64,000 nt of DNA, from NCBI GenBank assembly GCA_021205755.1, contig JAJPWX010000046.1, positions 1-64,000 of the forward strand. Direction: 5' to 3'. This document shows positions 1,032 through 64,000 of this stretch, in pieces (within the stretch, counting starts at the first letter, position 1; the number at the start of each line of letters is the position of its first letter). The notes beneath the pieces are model-generated. The model ran no database searches. It worked only from the letters and a program-made list of their open reading frames with translations, and was not told the origin of the DNA. Source of the DNA: Lachnospiraceae bacterium (GTDB lineage Bacteria > Bacillota > Clostridia > Lachnospirales > Lachnospiraceae). Made by a program: the position numbers and the translations under genes.

Positions 1032-1778
1032 ATGCATCATTTCTTTGTAAATAAAGATCAGATCGGAGAAAAAGAGATTCAGATTACCGGCAGTGACGTC
1101 AATCATATTCGGAATGTCCTGCGGATTCGTCCTGGCGAGCAGATAACGGTGAGCAGCCCGGATGCGGTTACCTACCGCTGCGAGGTGACAAAGACAGAGG
1201 AAGCCCTGGTAACGGCAAAAATTCTCTGGTCGCAGGAGGCGGATACCGAGTTGCCTTCGAAGATTGTGCTGTTTCAGGGTCTTCCAAAGGCTGACAAGAT
1301 GGAACTGATTATCCAGAAGGCAGTGGAGCTTGGGGTCAGTGAGATTGTTCCGATGGCGACCAGGCGCGCGGTGGTGAAGCTGGACACGAAAAAGGCGGAA
1401 GCCAAGCAGAAGCGGTGGAGCGCGATTGCAGAGAGCGCGGCGAAGCAGGCAAAGCGGACGATTATCCCGGAAATAAAGCCAGTCATGACATTTGAGGAAG
1501 CCGTGCGCTATGCAGAGTCTTTTGACCGAAAATTTATCCCCTATGAGCTGGCCAGAGGGATGGAAGCTACGAGGAAAGCATTCGGAGCAATTGCACCGGG
1601 AGAATCGGTCGCAATCATGATCGGCCCGGAGGGCGGCTTTGATGAGCAGGAGGTAGCTCTGGCCGGGGAGGCTGGTGTTCTTCCAATCACACTGGGGAGG
1701 CGGATTCTGCGCACAGAAACAGCGGGGATGACGGTGTTGTCCATTTTAATGTTTCTTCTGGAAGGGAAAACATCGTGA
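1032..1778 (+). CDS. rsmE: 16S rRNA (uracil1498-N3)-methyltransferase
   Basis: MHHFFVNKDQI..., IGPEGGFDEQEV and LGRRILRTETA motifs; directly follows prmA as in many Firmicutes. Confidence 0.93.
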   Translation: MHHFFVNKDQIGEKEIQITGSDVNHIRNVLRIRPGEQITVSSPDAVTYRCEVTKTEEALVTAKILWSQEADTELPSKIVLFQGLPKADKMELIIQKAVELGVSEIVPMATRRAVVKLDTKKAEAKQKRWSAIAESAAKQAKRTIIPEIKPVMTFEEAVRYAESFDRKFIPYELARGMEATRKAFGAIAPGESVAIMIGPEGGFDEQEVALAGEAGVLPITLGRRILRTETAGMTVLSILMFLLEGKTS

Positions 1779-26554: not shown

Positions 26555-26558
26555 CGGA

Positions 26559-26893
26559 TGGAGCAGACGGGAGTCGAACCCGTGTCCGAAAGCCGATCCA
26601 CTGTACTTCTACTATCATAGTCAGTTAATTGACATTCCCTCCGGCAGACGGCAACTGACAGTCTCCTGCTTTTAGTAGCTTCATGATACGCCCATATGCG
26701 CAAAGCTTAACATATGTCGTTTCCCGCATCGTCGATGCCTGGATCACAAAGTGCGAGTGCTCTGTGTCAGACAGCTGCCTCAGGCAGCGAGTGCTAAATT
26801 ATCTTCAGCGTTTAATTTTAATTTGTGATTTGACGCATCACCTGCGGATAGCTTCTCCAGATTCACAGCCCCCGTCGAAACCTTTACTACCCC
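26559..26893 (-). ncRNA. ssrA: Transfer-messenger RNA (tmRNA)
   Basis: Minus strand 5' GGGGTAGTAAAGGTTTCGACGGGGGC and 3' GGGTTCGACTCCCGTCTGCTCCA (acceptor stem pairs GGGGTAG/CTGCTCC); tag ORF ending ...NAEDNLALAA*; CCA not encoded. Confidence 0.95.
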
Positions 26894-36134: not shown

Positions 36135-36205
36135 CAGGGGTTGAGAGAATCGAACTCCCACTAAGAGTTTTGGAGACTCCTGTCATACCACTTGACCAAA
36201 CCCCT
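36135..36205 (-). tRNA. tRNA-Trp (CCA anticodon)
   Basis: Minus strand AGGGGTTTGGTCAAGTGGTATGACAGGAGTCTCCAAAACTCTTAGTGGGAGTTCGATTCTCTCAACCCCTG; anticodon loop CTCCAAA; CCA not encoded. Confidence 0.92.
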
Positions 36206-55465: not shown

Positions 55466-57139
55466 ATGAGAAGTGACGCAGTAAAAAAGGGCGTGCAGCA
55501 GGCGCCGCACCGTTCTCTGTTCCATGCATTGGGATTGTCAGAGGAAGAGATGAAGCGGCCGCTGGTCGGCATTGTAAGTTCCTATAATGAAGTGGTTCCG
55601 GGACATATGAACCTGGATAAGATTACAGAAGCAGTGAAGCTCGGCGTATCGCTGGCCGGCGGTGTACCGCGGGAGTTCCCGGCGATTGCCGTCTGCGATG
55701 GTATTGCGATGGGACACATTGGTATGAAGTATTCGCTTGTGACGCGCGACCTGATCGCGGATTCGACCGAGTGCATGGCGATGGCGCATCAGTTTGACGC
55801 GCTGGTGATGATCCCGAACTGTGACAAGAACGTGCCTGGGCTTCTGATGGCGGCTGCGCGGCTAAATATTCCGACAATTTTTGTCAGCGGCGGTCCGATG
55901 ATGGCAGGCCACCACAGAGGACGCAAGCGCAGCCTTTCCAGTATGTTTGAGGCGGTCGGCGAGCACGCGGCCGGGAAGATGACGGATGAAGAACTGACCG
56001 AATTTGAGCATAACGCATGTCCGACCTGCGGTTCCTGCTCCGGCATGTATACCGCGAATAGTATGAACTGTCTGACCGAGGTGCTCGGCATGGGCCTGAA
56101 GGGGAATGGTACGATTCCGGCGGTATATTCTGACCGCATTATTTTGGCGAAGATGGCCGGTATGCAGGTGATGGAGCTTCTGAAAAACGACATCCGCCCG
56201 CGTGACATTATGACGGAAAAGGCGTTTATGAATGCGCTGACAGTGGATATGGCGCTCGGTTGCTCGACAAACAGTATGCTGCATCTTCCGGCGATTGCGC
56301 ATGAGGCAGGCGTAGAGCTGAATGTAGACATAGCCAACGAAATCAGTGCGCGTACACCGAATATCTGTCATCTGGCGCCGGCGGGTCCGACCTATATGGA
56401 AGACCTGAATGAGGCAGGCGGCGTATACGCGGTGATGAATGAACTGACGAAGAAGAACCTGCTGAACCTGGACTGCATGACAGTGACCGGAAAGACAGTA
56501 GGAGAGAATATTAAGGACTGTGCAAACCTGAATCCGGAAGTCATCCGGCCGGTGGAGAATCCATACAGTACGACTGGCGGACTTGCTGTCCTGAAAGGCA
56601 ATCTGGCGCCGGAGGGCAGCGTAGTAAAGCGTTCTGCGGTTGCGCCGGAGATGATGGTGCATGAGGGACCGGCTCGTGTCTTTGACTGTGAGGAGGATGC
56701 GATTGAAACCATCCTTGGCGGAGGAATCCATCCGGGGGATGTAGTTGTCATTCGCTATGAAGGACCAAAAGGCGGACCGGGTATGCGCGAAATGCTGAAC
56801 CCCACTTCCGCGATTGCTGGTATGGGGCTTGGCTCTACCGTGGCTCTGATCACGGACGGGCGTTTCAGCGGCGCCTCCAGAGGCGCTTCGATCGGACATG
56901 TCTGCCCAGAGGCAGCGGTCGGCGGACCGATTGCGCTGGTCGAAGAGGGCGATATTATTAAGGTGAATATTCCGGAATGCACGCTGACGCTGGACGTAGA
57001 TGAGGAAGAACTTGCGAAGCGGCGGGCGGCATGGCAGCCAAGAGAGCCGAAGGTAAAGACTGGCTATCTGGAGCGCTACGCAGCGCTGGTGACAAGCGCG
57101 AGCCGCGGTGCGGTGCTGGAAGTACCGGGAAAGAATTAA
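55466..57139 (+). CDS. ilvD: Dihydroxy-acid dehydratase
   Basis: [63 protein letters not shown]. Confidence 0.96.
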
Positions 57140-57188: not shown

Positions 57189-58862
57189 ATGAAATTAAAT
57201 GGTTCTCAAATTGTAATCGAGTGCTTAAAGGAGCAGGGCGTAGACACGGTCTTCGGCTATCCGGGCGGCACGATTCTGAATATCTATGATGAACTGTATA
57301 AACACAGCGGGGAGATTCGCCATATCCTGACGTCCCATGAGCAGGGCGCCTCCCACGCGGCGGACGGATACGCGCGTTCTACCGGAAAAGTGGGCGTCTG
57401 CCTGGCAACCTCCGGACCGGGCGCGACGAACCTGGTGACCGGTATCGCGACGGCTTATATGGATTCGATCCCAATCGTGGCGATCACGGCGAATGTGGCA
57501 GTGTCCGCGCTTGGCCGTGACAGCTTTCAGGAGATCGATATTGCGGGTATCACCACACCGATTACGAAGCATAATTTTATTGTGAAGGATATTACAAAGC
57601 TCGCGGATACGATCCGCTGGGCCTTCCAGATCGCGCAGGAGGGACGTCCGGGACCGGTTTTGGTAGATATTCCGAAGGATGTCACTGCGGCAGTCACAGA
57701 GTTTGAACCGCAGGTGCCGGAAAAGCCGGAGCGCAGTACGGAGTATATCCGGGAAGCAGATCTGGATGCGGCCGTGAAGCTGATTAATGAGTGCGAAAAG
57801 CCATTCGTGTTTGTCGGCGGCGGCGCGGTGCGCTCGGACGCGTCAGAGGAACTGAAAAGATTTGTAGATAAGGTGCATGCGCCAGTGGCGGATTCTCTCA
57901 TGGGCAAGGGAGCATTTGACGGCAGAGAAGAGATGTACTGCGGCATGCTCGGCATGCATGGGACAAAGACCGCAAACCTTGGCGTGAGCCAGTGCGACCT
58001 GCTGATTACGATTGGTGCGCGTTTCAGCGACCGTGTGATCGGAAATGCCGCAACCTTTGCCAGAAACGCAAAGGTTCTGCAGATTGACGTTGACCCGGCG
58101 GAGATCAACAAGAATATTCAGGTGGATACCAGCATCATCGGCGATGTCCGTGAAGTTCTGAAGCGGCTGAATGCGCGGATTGAGGATCACCGTCACGATG
58201 AATGGGATGATTCGATCAAAGAACTGAAAAAGAAATATCCATTGAAATACAATGAAAATGGCCTGACCGGCCCCTATGTGGTGGAAGAGATTTACCGCCA
58301 GACGCAGGGCGACGCAATTATCGTAACCGACGTTGGTCAGCACCAGATGTGGACCGCGCAGTATTACAAGTTCTCCAAACCGCGCACGCTTCTTTCCTCT
58401 GGTGGCCTGGGCACGATGGGCTATGGTGTCGGAGCCGCGATTGGCGCGAAAGTGGCGAACCCGGATAAGACGGTGATCAATATCGCGGGCGACGGCTGTT
58501 TCCGCATGAATATGAACGAGATTGCCACAGCGGTACGCTACAACATACCGATCATTGAAGTGGTGATCAATAATCATGTACTCGGTATGGTGCGCCAGTG
58601 GCAGACCCTGTTTTATGACAAGCGCTATTCCGCGACGATACTCAACGACCAGGTGGATTTTGTAAAGCTGGCGGAGGCCATGGGTGCGGTTGGTATTCTG
58701 GTGACGGAAAAAGAAGAGGTCGGACCGGCGATTGAAAGAGCGATCGGCCTGGGACGTCCGGTGGTGATCGACTGTCAGATTGACGCTGATGATAAGGTGT
58801 TCCCGATGGTATCGCCTGGAGCGGCGATTGATACTGCGTTTGACCAGGATGACCTGAAATAA
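57189..58862 (+). CDS. ilvB: Acetolactate synthase large subunit
   Basis: YPGGTILNIYDEL; GPGATNLVTGIATAYMDSIP; GDGCFRMNMNEIATA. Confidence 0.95.
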   Translation: MKLNGSQIVIECLKEQGVDTVFGYPGGTILNIYDELYKHSGEIRHILTSHEQGASHAADGYARSTGKVGVCLATSGPGATNLVTGIATAYMDSIPIVAITANVAVSALGRDSFQEIDIAGITTPITKHNFIVKDITKLADTIRWAFQIAQEGRPGPVLVDIPKDVTAAVTEFEPQVPEKPERSTEYIREADLDAAVKLINECEKPFVFVGGGAVRSDASEELKRFVDKVHAPVADSLMGKGAFDGREEMYCGMLGMHGTKTANLGVSQCDLLITIGARFSDRVIGNAATFARNAKVLQIDVDPAEINKNIQVDTSIIGDVREVLKRLNARIEDHRHDEWDDSIKELKKKYPLKYNENGLTGPYVVEEIYRQTQGDAIIVTDVGQHQMWTAQYYKFSKPRTLLSSGGLGTMGYGVGAAIGAKVANPDKTVINIAGDGCFRMNMNEIATAVRYNIPIIEVVINNHVLGMVRQWQTLFYDKRYSATILNDQVDFVKLAEAMGAVGILVTEKEEVGPAIERAIGLGRPVVIDCQIDADDKVFPMVSPGAAIDTAFDQDDLK

Positions 58863-58938: not shown

Positions 58939-60021
58939 ATGAGCAGAGTGTACAACTTTTCAGCCGGTCCGGCGGTATTGCCGGAGGAGGTTCTGCGCGA
59001 AGTGCAGGACGAGATGATGGATTATGGCGGCAGCGGGATGTCCGTGATGGAGATGAGCCACCGCTCGAAGGTGTTTGATAACATTATTCAGGAAGCAGAG
59101 CAGGATCTGCGCGATCTGATGGGGATTCCGGACAATTACCGCGTGCTGTTCATGCAGGGCGGCGCGAGCCTGCAGTTTGCGATGATCCCGATGAACCTGA
59201 TGAAGAACCGGGTAGCGGACTATGTGATTACCGGCCAGTGGGCGAAAAAAGCATGGCAGGAAGCGCAGAAGTACGGTACCGCGAACGCAGTGGCGTCCAG
59301 CGCAGACAAGACGTTCTCCTATATTCCGGATTGCAGTGATCTGCCGATCAGTGAGAATGCTGACTATGTGTACATCTGTGAGAACAATACCATTTACGGG
59401 ACAAAATACAAAAAACTCCCGAATACGAAAGGAAAGATTCTGGTTTCCGATGTATCCTCCTGCTTCCTTTCTGAACCAGTAAATGTGACAGATTACGGCA
59501 TTATTTATGGCGGCGTCCAGAAGAACATCGGACCGGCCGGGATGGTGATTTCCGTGATTCGCGATGACCTGATTACGGATGATGTGATGGAGTGCACGCC
59601 GACTATGATGAAATTCAAAACACACGCCGATGCGGGCTCTCTTTACAACACCCCGAACTGCTGGTGCATTTATGTGTGCGGCAAGGTCTTCAAGTGGCTG
59701 AAAGCGATGGGCGGTCTTTCTGTGATGAAGGAGCGCAATGAGAAAAAAGCTGCGATTCTTTATGATTTTCTGGATAACAGCCGGTTGTTCCACGGTACGG
59801 TGGTGAAGGAAGACCGTTCCCTGATGAATGTTCCTTTCGTGACCGGGGATAATGAGCTGGACGCGAAGTTTGTCAAAGAAGCAGAGGCAGCCGGATTTGT
59901 GAACCTCAAAGGTCACCGCACCGTTGGCGGTATGCGCGCCAGCATCTACAACGCGATGCCGCAGGAGGGCGTGGAGAAGCTGGTGGAGTTTATGAAAGAT
60001 TTTGAAGAGAAAACTCTGTGA
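58939..60021 (+). CDS. serC: Phosphoserine aminotransferase
   Basis: MSRVYNFSAGPAVLPEEVL; GGVQKNIGPAGMVISVIR. Confidence 0.96.
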   Translation: MSRVYNFSAGPAVLPEEVLREVQDEMMDYGGSGMSVMEMSHRSKVFDNIIQEAEQDLRDLMGIPDNYRVLFMQGGASLQFAMIPMNLMKNRVADYVITGQWAKKAWQEAQKYGTANAVASSADKTFSYIPDCSDLPISENADYVYICENNTIYGTKYKKLPNTKGKILVSDVSSCFLSEPVNVTDYGIIYGGVQKNIGPAGMVISVIRDDLITDDVMECTPTMMKFKTHADAGSLYNTPNCWCIYVCGKVFKWLKAMGGLSVMKERNEKKAAILYDFLDNSRLFHGTVVKEDRSLMNVPFVTGDNELDAKFVKEAEAAGFVNLKGHRTVGGMRASIYNAMPQEGVEKLVEFMKDFEEKTL

Positions 60022-60108: not shown

Positions 60109-61272
60109 ATGTATCAGTATAAATGTTTAAATCCAATCGCGACAGCGGGACTGAATCAGCTGTCCGGCCAGTATGCGCAGGTAGAGAATCTGGAAGAGGC
60201 GGACGCGGTGCTGGTGCGCAGCGCAAATATGCATGAGTTGGAGTTGCCGGATACCCTCCAGGCCATCGCTCGTGCGGGAGCCGGGGTAAATAATATCCCG
60301 CTTGACTTATGTGCCGAAAAAGGCATTGTTGTATTTAATACACCGGGTGCGAATGCGAATGGTGTAAAAGAGCTGGTGATTGCGGGGATGCTGCTTGCAG
60401 CCCGCGATATTGTCGGCGGGGTTGGCTGGGTGGAAAGCCAGGCGGGCAACGCAGATGTACAGAAACAGGCGGAAAAAGAGAAGAAACGCTTTGCGGGAAC
60501 GGAACTGCGCGGCAAGAAGCTTGGTATCATCGGTCTTGGCGCGATTGGCGTGCAGGTGGCGAACGCGGCGACACATCTTTGCATGGAAGTGTATGGGTAC
60601 GACCCCTATATTTCCGTAGACGCAGCCTGGAATCTTTCACGCAGCATTCATCATATCACGGATGTAGAGCAGATTTACGCGCAGTGCGACTATATTACGA
60701 TTCATGTTCCACTGATGGATTCCACCCGCGGTATGATCGATCAGGCGGCGATTTCCAAAATGAAGCCGAACGCAGTGGTGCTGAACTTTGCGAGAGATCT
60801 TCTGGTAGATGAAAAGGCAATAGTTGCAGCTCTGGAAGAAGGGCACATCCACCGTTATGTATCCGATTTTCCAAATCCGGAGACGGTTGGCAAAAAAGGC
60901 GTTATTATTACACCGCATCTGGGCGCATCTACTGCGGAAGCGGAAGAAAACTGTGCAGTGATGGCAGTGAATGAGCTGCGGAATTTCCTGGAAAACGGCA
61001 ATATCCGCAATTCTGTGAACTATCCGAACTGTGACATGGGCGTGTGTACGCACATGGCCCGTGTGGCGATTTACCATAAGAATGTGCCGAAAATGATCAG
61101 CCGGTTTACCGATGTGCTTGGCGATATGAATATTCAGAATATGAGCAACACCAGCCGCGGTGACTATGCCTATACGTTGGTTGATCTGGATGCTCCGGTT
61201 TCGGACGAGATTGTGGCCGGGCTCAGGGCGGTAAAGGATGTCATTAAAGTGCGTGTGGTAAAAAACGGCTGA
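60109..61272 (+). CDS. serA: D-3-phosphoglycerate dehydrogenase with C-terminal ACT-like region
   Basis: IARAGAGVNNIPLDLCAEKGIVVFNTPGANANGVKELV; LGIIGLGAIGVQVANAA; ITPHLGASTAEAEENCA. Confidence 0.93.
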   Translation: MYQYKCLNPIATAGLNQLSGQYAQVENLEEADAVLVRSANMHELELPDTLQAIARAGAGVNNIPLDLCAEKGIVVFNTPGANANGVKELVIAGMLLAARDIVGGVGWVESQAGNADVQKQAEKEKKRFAGTELRGKKLGIIGLGAIGVQVANAATHLCMEVYGYDPYISVDAAWNLSRSIHHITDVEQIYAQCDYITIHVPLMDSTRGMIDQAAISKMKPNAVVLNFARDLLVDEKAIVAALEEGHIHRYVSDFPNPETVGKKGVIITPHLGASTAEAEENCAVMAVNELRNFLENGNIRNSVNYPNCDMGVCTHMARVAIYHKNVPKMISRFTDVLGDMNIQNMSNTSRGDYAYTLVDLDAPVSDEIVAGLRAVKDVIKVRVVKNG

Positions 61273-61345: not shown

Positions 61346-62587
61346 ATGGCAGAAATCATTCCATTTTACGGCGTACTTCCGGCAAAAGAATACGCCTCCC
61401 GCGTGGCAGCGCTTCCCTATGATGTTTACAGCCGTGAGGAAGCGGCTGCAGCTGCGTCAAAGGATCGGCTGTCCTTTTTAAATATTGACCGTCCGGAGAC
61501 ACAGTTTGATCCAGCGCAGGACATGTACGCGCCGGAAGTGTACCGCAAAGCAGATGAAATGCTTCACGCGGAAATTGCGGAGGGCATTTTTAGACAGGAT
61601 CAGGAAAAGAATTACTATATTTACGAGCTGACCATGAATGGGCGCAGCCAGACCGGGCTGGTGGCTTGTGCTTCGATAGATGATTACATCCATAATGTGA
61701 TCAAGAAGCATGAGAATACCCGTGCGGAAAAGGAAGAGGACCGCGTCCGCCACGTGGATCAGTGCAGTGCGCAGACCGGACCGATTTTTCTGGCGTATCA
61801 CCGCGATGAACGGATCGCTGCGGTAATTGCCCGCGCAAAGGAACAGGAGCCGATTTTTGCATTTTGTTCAGAGGATGGGATCGGGCACCGTGGCTGGCGC
61901 ATCGGAGATACCTCGGATATCATTGAGATCTGCGAAGCTTTTGCGGGGATTGACCACATTTATATCGCAGACGGGCATCACCGGGCTGCTTCAGCGGTGC
62001 GTGTCGGATTGCAGCGCAGGGCGGAGCATCCTGATTACGAAGGGGACGAGGAGTTCAATTATTTTCTTTCTGTGCTTTTCCCGGATGATGAACTGATGAT
62101 CATGGATTATAACCGGCTGGTGAAAGATCTGAATGGCCTGACCGTGCCGGAATTTTTAGAGCGTACGGGTGAGGTGTTTGAAGTGACCCCCTGCGAGAAA
62201 GGGAAAAAACCCGAAAAGAAGGGCTGCGTCACCATGTACCTCGACTCACAGTGGTATCATTTAGAGTTAAAACCAGAGTATCGCAGTGCAGATCCGGTTC
62301 TGGGGCTTGACGTGTCGGCACTTCAGAACCATCTGATTGCCCCGGTACTGGATATTCAGGATCCCAAACGGAACCGCCGGATTGACTTTGTCGGCGGAAT
62401 TCGTGGACTGGAAGAACTGAAACGACGGGTAGATGAGGACGGATGGGCGGCAGCGTTTGCGATGTACCCGACTTCGATTGGGGAACTTTTCGCGGTCGCC
62501 GATGCAGGGCTTTTGATGCCACCGAAATCAACCTGGTTTGAACCAAAGCTGCGCAGCGGATTGTTTTTGCATCTTTTTGAAAGATAA
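61346..62587 (+). CDS. DUF1015 family protein
   Basis: IIPFYGVLPAKEYASRVAALPYDVYSREEA; IYIADGHHRAASAVRVG; downstream of serC-serA. Confidence 0.92.
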   Translation: MAEIIPFYGVLPAKEYASRVAALPYDVYSREEAAAAASKDRLSFLNIDRPETQFDPAQDMYAPEVYRKADEMLHAEIAEGIFRQDQEKNYYIYELTMNGRSQTGLVACASIDDYIHNVIKKHENTRAEKEEDRVRHVDQCSAQTGPIFLAYHRDERIAAVIARAKEQEPIFAFCSEDGIGHRGWRIGDTSDIIEICEAFAGIDHIYIADGHHRAASAVRVGLQRRAEHPDYEGDEEFNYFLSVLFPDDELMIMDYNRLVKDLNGLTVPEFLERTGEVFEVTPCEKGKKPEKKGCVTMYLDSQWYHLELKPEYRSADPVLGLDVSALQNHLIAPVLDIQDPKRNRRIDFVGGIRGLEELKRRVDEDGWAAAFAMYPTSIGELFAVADAGLLMPPKSTWFEPKLRSGLFLHLFER

Positions 62588-62616
62588 AGCGCAGCGATTT
62601 AATTAGCCGGATGCCG

Positions 62617-62675
62617 TTACAGGTCACACCTGTAGTGATTGAATAAGGTAAATTTGATCAAGGTGTGACCTGTAA
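62617..62675 (+). repeat. Small structured repeat, family B, copy 2
   Basis: ttacaggtcacacct (62617-62631) / aggtgtgacctgtaa (62661-62675) perfect 15-bp inverted repeat; internal TCAC-acctgta-GTGA. Confidence 0.75.
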
Positions 62676-62708
62676 TGGCTGTGAAGCGACAGAACAGGAG
62701 GATTCTCT

Positions 62709-64000
62709 ATGAATGAAAAACTGTACGATTTAATGGACTGGGCTGGAATTGAAGCACTTGTTTATTCTGAAGAGGACAACCCTCATCAGAACCTGGGTCC
62801 CCATTTGACGGAGGACGGCGTCGTTTTCCTTGCATTTTTTCCGGGCGCTGCAGAAGCGTCTGTTCGGATTGAGGGGCAAAAAGATCCGCTTCCTATGGAG
62901 ATGGAAGACGAAGCCGGATACTTTGCGGCGATGATGGAAGGGGATGCCATTCCTGCTTATTCTTATCGGGTGGTTTATGAGGACGGAAAAGAAGCGGAAT
63001 ACGGAGATCCTTATGCGTTCGCGCCGCAGCTGACTGAAAAAGATACAAAGAAATTCAATGCCGGTATTTCCTACGAAGTCTATAAAAAGCTGGGAGCGCA
63101 TCCGATGACGATCGACGGAAAGTCAGGCGTGTATTTTGCCGTCTGGGCACCATATGCGATGCGCGTCAGTGTGGTTGGTGATTTTAACAGCTGGGATGGG
63201 CGGATGTATCCGATGCGCAGACTCTGGGATTCCGGTATTTTTGAACTGTTTGTACCGGGAATTGCTTCTGGAGCGCTTTATAAGTTTGAGATCAAGGCAA
63301 AAGGAGGTCTGACCTATCTGAAGGCAGATCCTTATGCGAATGCGTCCGAGCTTCGTCCGGGAACGGCTTCGGTTGTGACAGACCTGAGTGATTTTGTGTG
63401 GACCGATGAAAAATGGCTCGCCGCCCGCAGCAGCGCGCAGGCAAAAGATGTCCCGATGGCGGTTTATGAGGTTGACCTTGCGACATTCCGGAAGCCGATT
63501 ACGCAAAACGAGAAGCAGGAAGCTGCCGCTGAGAGTATGGGCGCAGCGTTTCCTCAGATTCGGCCTGCAAAGAGTCCGGAGAAAGCAGAGGCTTCCGTTT
63601 CGAAAAACGCGGAGAAGGCGGATTCCCAGGTTTTGCCGGGGCAGAGTGAAGAAAATGGCGGCGGGAACGTGGACGCAGCGGAAGTCCGTGAATTTTACAA
63701 TTACCGTGAACTGGCTCCGATGATTGCGGATTATGTGAAAGCGCTTGGCTATACTCACATTGAACTGTTGCCGGTCATGGAGCATTATTCGGACCGTTCG
63801 TATGGCTATGAAGTGACCGGCTATTATGCGCCGACCGCCCGCTTTGGTACGCCGGAAGATTTTATGTATTTCATGAATTACATGCATGAGCAGGGCATCG
63901 GTGTGATCCTTGACTGGGTACCGTCGCAGTTCCCGCGTGACACACATGGTCTGGCAGCTTTCGACGGGACATTCCTGTATGAGCATCTGGATCCGCGCAA
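62709..64000 (+). CDS. glgB: 1,4-alpha-glucan branching enzyme-like protein (partial, runs off window)
   Basis: MNEKLYDLMDWAGIEALVYSEEDNPHQNLGPHLTEDG; VSVVGDFNSWDGRMYPMRR; YTHIELLPVMEHYSDRSYGYEVTGYYAPTARFGTPEDF; FDGTFLYEHLDPR; frame open to 64000. Confidence 0.88.
   Translation, partial: MNEKLYDLMDWAGIEALVYSEEDNPHQNLGPHLTEDGVVFLAFFPGAAEASVRIEGQKDPLPMEMEDEAGYFAAMMEGDAIPAYSYRVVYEDGKEAEYGDPYAFAPQLTEKDTKKFNAGISYEVYKKLGAHPMTIDGKSGVYFAVWAPYAMRVSVVGDFNSWDGRMYPMRRLWDSGIFELFVPGIASGALYKFEIKAKGGLTYLKADPYANASELRPGTASVVTDLSDFVWTDEKWLAARSSAQAKDVPMAVYEVDLATFRKPITQNEKQEAAAESMGAAFPQIRPAKSPEKAEASVSKNAEKADSQVLPGQSEENGGGNVDAAEVREFYNYRELAPMIADYVKALGYTHIELLPVMEHYSDRSYGYEVTGYYAPTARFGTPEDFMYFMNYMHEQGIGVILDWVPSQFPRDTHGLAAFDGTFLYEHLDPR

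Follow-up and report, generated by a model that had tools for sequence, protein, structure and literature searches.

How is serine completed in bacteria that encode enzymes for making phosphoserine and show no sign of the phosphatase SerB? The question is raised by a locus of a Lachnospiraceae bacterium, situated in the window analysed here, i.e. the whole stretch of 64,000 nucleotides at the beginning of contig JAJPWX010000046.1. An initial annotation of this DNA pointed to serC and serA followed by a gene of the DUF1015 family, with no serB in sight, and suggested that DUF1015 might act in the missing step, either on phosphoserine itself or as a regulator of the pathway. On the grounds of sequence comparison and structure prediction, it is considered likely that one type of this family (type A) turns O-phosphoserine into serine with an active site of the SerK type, replacing SerB, and that it is probably responsible for the missing serine step in many bacteria of gut, soil and sea. 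The genes concerned are the following:

55466 to 57139, forward strand: ilvD-like dihydroxyacid dehydratase gene; open reading frame and translation read directly
57189 to 58862, forward strand: ilvB-like acetolactate synthase large subunit gene; open reading frame and translation read directly
58939 to 60021, forward strand: serC, phosphoserine aminotransferase (NF003764, 545.6 bits; TIGR01364, 504 bits; both above the cut-off); start read from the sequence
60109 to 61272, forward strand: serA-like phosphoglycerate dehydrogenase gene, 387 amino acids (PF02826 and PF00389)
61346 to 62587, forward strand: DUF1015 (type A) gene, ATG start, 413 amino acids; PF06245 is its sole Pfam match (378.6 bits against a cut-off of 25.8), covered over positions 1-325 of 325

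These genes form a row on one strand, ilvD-ilvB-serC-serA-DUF1015, in which DUF1015 is the fifth and last, some 74 nt beyond serA. The order serC-serA-DUF1015 had been correctly described, and the row is now found to begin earlier, with ilvD and ilvB, whose identities we take from knowledge of such sequences, without a family-library scan. The serA-like product is a 2-hydroxyacid dehydrogenase, for which the top NCBIfam models are phosphoglycerate dehydrogenases with scores below their cut-offs. The absence of serB from the window extends to the whole genome (4.02 Mb, 99.86% complete), since a search with the SerB model at E<=10 returned weak, mostly partial matches, the best of them at 31 bits against a cut-off of 144.

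Such a gap has been documented elsewhere. Of 2856 human-gut genomes, 450 encode SerA and SerC together with none of four known SerB types (PMC9026213), the ilv-ser operon of Roseburia is devoid of serB (PMC7478625), and the growth of C. perfringens and E. faecalis without serine is unexplained (PMC7311316). In a sample of 299 genomes of the clostridial phylum, SerB exceeded its cut-off in 1, while DUF1015 was found in 150 and this type of SerC in 91, the two occurring together in 61 (odds ratio 2.7, above chance). Moreover, in the genus to which Enterococcus ureilyticus belongs, type A DUF1015 is present in 22/22 genomes. The sample also contains 30 genomes with serC and without DUF1015 which, save at most one, lack a SerB above the cut-off, so other phosphatases exist. 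It might be supposed that an unrecognised phosphatase of the HAD or histidine family, encoded elsewhere and comparable to YsaA of Bacillus, does the step, and that DUF1015 is accessory or regulatory, for instance a sensor of phosphoserine or serine. Alternative phosphatases are indeed known (PMC9026213), YsaA, which is also carried by Paenibacillus, has phosphoserine phosphatase activity (PMC8002221), and generic HAD frames are present in the genome of the window. This reading is nevertheless judged quite unlikely, the evidence on its regulatory part being given below with the motifs and with the distribution of SerB. As regards the known enzymes, namely SerB (TIGR00338, HAD), ThrH, YsaA and the histidine-family PSP, type A DUF1015 would share with them the reaction and the place in the pathway, whereas it has no sequence or fold relation to any of them. 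Membership among the HAD phosphatases was rejected, as no HAD family appeared in the Pfam and NCBIfam scans and the significant fold matches include no HAD structure.

The relationships of DUF1015 itself were approached through a structure model. Aligned type A proteins, 76 in all (that of the window and 75 from named genomes), were used as input for AlphaFold2, and the resulting model has a mean pLDDT of 96.7. Its comparison by Foldseek with 350,542 PDB chains gave nine matches at the significance threshold of E<=1e-3, all of them SerK (1vk1 and 5x0b/e/g/j/k) or SbnI (6nr6, 5uje and 5ujd), with E values from 1e-8 to 7e-6 and a Foldseek probability of 1.00 in each case; the next-best PDB match has an E value of 0.03. 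The TM-scores are 0.49-0.60 by target and 0.32-0.38 by query. Furthermore, a profile built from 18 diverse DUF1015 proteins and run against the PDB had no matches other than 1vk1 and SerK chains (E 2.8e-4 to 6.6e-3), the match being collinear at two stretches, DGHHR and a C-terminal one ending in PKTT in SerK and in PPKST in DUF1015. The diverse profile was needed for this purpose, the window protein alone giving no match among the PDB sequences; a SerK fragment used as query found no plasmid homologue. The kinship that the initial annotation had guessed from a single pentapeptide is thus borne out, both by a fold comparison whose significant matches are SerK and SbnI only and by an independent profile match to SerK. 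As far as models and profiles allow, the computation establishes that DUF1015 is homologous to SerK/SbnI and has kept their motifs.

The likeness has its limits. With SerK (T. kodakarensis TK0378, PDB 5x0b; P. furiosus, 1vk1), DUF1015 shares the fold (Foldseek E 1e-8 to 2e-7), the nucleotide/phosphate motif DGHHR and the C-terminal PKxT, and its HE dyad probably corresponds to the one that in SerK holds the catalytic E30, whereas SerK has 242 amino acids against 413, about 15% identity, and P-H-E where type A has K-H-E; in addition, DUF1015 has a fixed partnership with serC and serA in bacteria and is proposed to run the reaction the other way. The staphylococcal SbnI (PDB 5uje, 5ujd and 6nr6) likewise has the fold (E 1.8e-7 to 6.6e-6) and the substrate class, serine and phosphoserine, in common with it, but is an ATP-dependent serine kinase of a siderophore pathway, with about 254 amino acids and 11-12% identity in the fold alignment. 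The ParB-CTPase/sulfiredoxin fold is the remote superfamily of SerK, yet the window protein gives no match to PF02195 and no ParB or sulfiredoxin structure is among its significant fold matches, by which canonical membership in ParB was ruled out. In the portions consulted of a survey published in 2025 on the ParB-CTPase fold, a 'DU1015' fusion figures among the 50 proteins tested and is not listed among the nucleotide binders (PMC12704722).

Three stretches of the gene encode the motifs in question:

61709 to 61714, forward strand: H122-E123, invariant, candidate counterpart of H29-E30 of SerK (E30 being the catalytic Glu) by a weak profile alignment
61970 to 61984, forward strand: DGHHR motif, residues 209-213, invariant in types A-C and aligned to DGHHR of SerK
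62516 to 62548, forward strand: MPPKSTWFEPK, residues 391-401, counterpart of the C-terminal PKTT of SerK according to alignments and the SerK profile match

The DGHHR codons lie exactly where they had been placed initially. Residues A208-R213 are invariant in the 18 diverse proteins and in 76 close relatives, which excludes a chance occurrence of the motif. The pattern H-E-x-T is also invariant in the diverse alignment, reading KKHENT in type A, LPHEET in type B and IRHEKT in a third group. In SerK, E30 lies in KPHEQ. It is the position altered in the complexes that contain phosphoserine and AMP, in which the mutant chains read PHA and PHQ. The HE of DUF1015 is paired with that of SerK, weakly, in the full-profile alignment and is not paired in a shorter profile alignment; on this sequence evidence, E123 is the probable counterpart of E30. 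Residues fixed in type A as against the other DUF1015 types surround these motifs, namely K120-K121 before HE, A215 after DGHHR, P393, W397 and E399, and they may underlie a change of direction. HE, DGHHR and PKxT are retained together in 160 of 177 proteins, which would not be needed in a regulator. The PDB annotates SbnI as a bifunctional regulator and phosphoserine synthase, and a sensory role might be argued from this; all catalytic motifs being kept, however, the option of a pathway regulator raised by the initial annotation has become the less likely one.

The gene context in relatives has been studied in 60 neighbourhoods, picked to span the DUF1015 family in the phylum, up to a distance of six genes. 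Within that distance a serA-like gene was found in 20 of them and SerC in 12, while 11 have an alternative transaminase. A serine gene lies at most three genes away, and on the strand of DUF1015, in 41 of the 79 named loci, and in Bacteroidota 72 of the 83 type A genes lie within 4 kb of serC. The arrangement differs from group to group: serC-serA-DUF1015 in Lachnospiraceae, Peptoniphilus, Listeria ilorinensis, Enterococcus ureilyticus and Bacteroidales; alternative transaminase-serA-DUF1015 in Clostridium, Lutispora and a Bacteroidetes MAG; DUF1015-serA-serC in a Gemmatimonadetes MAG; DUF1015-transaminase-serA in an Acidobacteria MAG; serC-DUF1015 in Chitinophagaceae, and DUF1015-serC in a Bacteroidota group. 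One partnership that persists through varied orders and with two different transaminases is hard to account for without a shared pathway. It could be objected that the neighbourhood is incidental and that the substrate is some other small molecule, because 42 of the 113 members with at least 500 bits have no ser gene nearby (partly on account of short contigs) and because distant DUF1015 types adjoin unrelated genes. Given the closeness to serC in Bacteroidota and the diversity of gene orders among phyla, this objection is very improbable.

If type A replaces SerB, the two should seldom meet in one genome. SerB above its cut-off was found in 0/39 genomes with a named type A locus, which, judged by their record titles, belong to at least seven phyla. 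Among 198 Bacteroidota genomes, with type A taken as at least 400 bits to the type A alignment, 83 have type A, 56 have SerB and none has both, against about 23 expected (Fisher p 3e-17, relatedness ignored). When only the 113 Bacteroidota genomes with serC are considered, the figures are 79, 10 and 0 (p 2e-6, relatedness ignored), and in the order of Enterococcus (121 genomes) they are 37, 13 and 0 (p 0.009, relatedness ignored). These p-values overstate the evidence, as kinship is ignored, yet the pattern recurs in separate clades. The pathway context and the pattern of SerB replacement in type A are results of the computation itself. Exclusion from SerB in three data sets is not predicted for a regulatory DUF1015.

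At a looser cut-off of at least 280 bits, SerB and a type A-like DUF1015 occur together in four Bacteroidota genomes. The proteins concerned come from a subclade of six (support 1.0) that has no serine genes in its neighbourhood and whose C-terminal motifs are altered. This subclade (L172-L175, L190 and L191), which adjoins a 3-hydroxyacyl-CoA dehydrogenase-like gene, has its C-terminal motif changed to KST-F/Y-I-EPK, and SerB is present in four of its six genomes.

The exclusion of SerB is also predicted if DUF1015 is a true serine kinase, which would send serine through reversed SerC and SerA to glycolysis, or provide phosphoserine for cysteine, the absence of SerB avoiding a futile cycle. 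SerK and SbnI have been characterised as kinases, i.e. in the direction opposite to the one proposed here; in Desulfurococcales, the archaeal serK has serA and a transaminase in its vicinity, which has been interpreted as serine assimilation (PMC5120207), and some COG4198 genes have a glycine riboswitch in front of them (PMC2211319). Such a kinase is nonetheless unlikely. Phosphoserine is already made by SerA and SerC, the window gene ends a biosynthetic row, ilvD-ilvB-serC-serA, and prototrophs without SerB require a step from phosphoserine to serine (PMC7311316).

Regulation also speaks on this point. T-box leaders were identified with Rfam 5' of transaminase-serA-DUF1015 in Clostridium magnum (L125), Clostridium sp. 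cel8 (L131) and Lutispora (L133), about 150-330 nt before the first gene, and in all three the specifier, read from the alignment, is the serine codon UCC, followed by a purine. Ser(UCC) has likewise been predicted for the serA T-boxes of C. acetobutylicum and C. tetani, and serine starvation induces through the serine T-box in Paenibacillus (PMC8002221). Genes that are induced by lack of serine should make it, and this counts against a kinase that consumes it. A search for riboswitches and T-boxes near the operon of the window found none, so the argument is based on its relatives. In another genome (L012), a SAM riboswitch (90.6 bits; 1042-1146, reverse strand) adjoins the DUF1015 locus.

The proposal that type A acts in the missing step of serine synthesis cannot be carried over to the whole family. 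Distant DUF1015 proteins (about 140-200 bits) coexist with SerB and adjoin other genes, so that the family in its entirety is no SerB substitute and the claim is limited to type A; the distant types probably do something else, and most of those coexisting with SerB retain the P-H-E of SerK. A single function for all DUF1015 was rejected for this reason and because a further type lacks DGHHR and HE. This subfamily (L056, L057, L058, L059, L062 and L063, e.g. L056:5548-6906, forward strand; PF06245 about 175-220 bits) is without DGHHR and HE-x-T, and has GDGNHS and LPRKTFS in their place. As noted by eye, other distant types have neighbours of their own: a conserved small MazG-like gene in Bacillota (L040, L045, L051, L054 and L064), ScpA-like and TsaE-like genes in one Bacteroidota group (L199-L203), and a biotin-carboxylase-like gene in another (L204-L206 and L208).

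For type A, a part in the missing step of serine synthesis is therefore supported by gene context in several phyla, by SerB exclusion in three data sets and by serine T-boxes upstream of related operons. As to the mechanism, SerA and SerC, encoded in the same row, would supply phosphoserine, which would be bound between the lobe with DGHHR and the C-terminal one with PKxT; E123 would act at the place of E30 of SerK, and the phosphoryl group would pass to an acceptor, which could be water, Pi or a nucleotide. The direction, the chemistry and the acceptor of the reaction are what we infer from these comparisons. Passing the phosphate of phosphoserine on to ADP or AMP costs some 20 kJ/mol, transfer to Pi is feasible if pyrophosphate is low, and hydrolysis is downhill. 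These energetics favour water or Pi over a nucleotide kinase literally run in reverse. ADP or AMP would accordingly be the acceptor that is thermodynamically least attractive, while hydrolysis and transfer to Pi fit the data equally. A more far-reaching version, which is doubtful though conceivable, is that type A saves the phosphate by passing it to Pi, with formation of pyrophosphate, or to a nucleotide; it would then be a serine kinase evolved in reverse, giving an energy-conserving last step widespread in anaerobic Bacillota and Bacteroidota, and the distant types that coexist with SerB would be forward kinases.

In the literature searched, which left out preprints and most subscription journals, no function for DUF1015 and no link between it and serine were found, nor any mention of a PPi-serine phosphotransferase; the two papers that name DUF1015 deal with other matters than what it does, and papers on Desulfovibrio genetics say nothing of it in the passages on serine consulted. 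The superfamily is a known one, of which the enzyme would be a variant, while the biological assignment appears to be new. If correct, the assignment could close much of the documented phosphoserine phosphatase gap and correct auxotrophy predictions for gut communities. It would also give a function to a family found in half of the sampled genomes of the clostridial phylum and in 86% of the sampled Bacteroidota genomes, and provide an example of a kinase scaffold recruited to dephosphorylation.

Some further elements of the window may be recorded. Downstream of DUF1015, a gene resembling those of 1,4-alpha-glucan branching enzymes, with a low-complexity insert (judged by eye), occupies 62709-63998 on the forward strand and extends past the end of the window. 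Between the two genes lies a long hairpin at 62613-62679 (z-score -5.5), for which a weak microRNA match was dismissed as surely due to chance. One of its arms, TTACAGGTCACACC, has five matches in the window at no more than two mismatches, against 0.2 expected, and being recurrent it may be a dispersed repeat. Elsewhere in the window, both on the reverse strand, are a tmRNA gene at 26556-26893 (RF00023, 128.8 bits) and a tRNA gene at 36135-36205.
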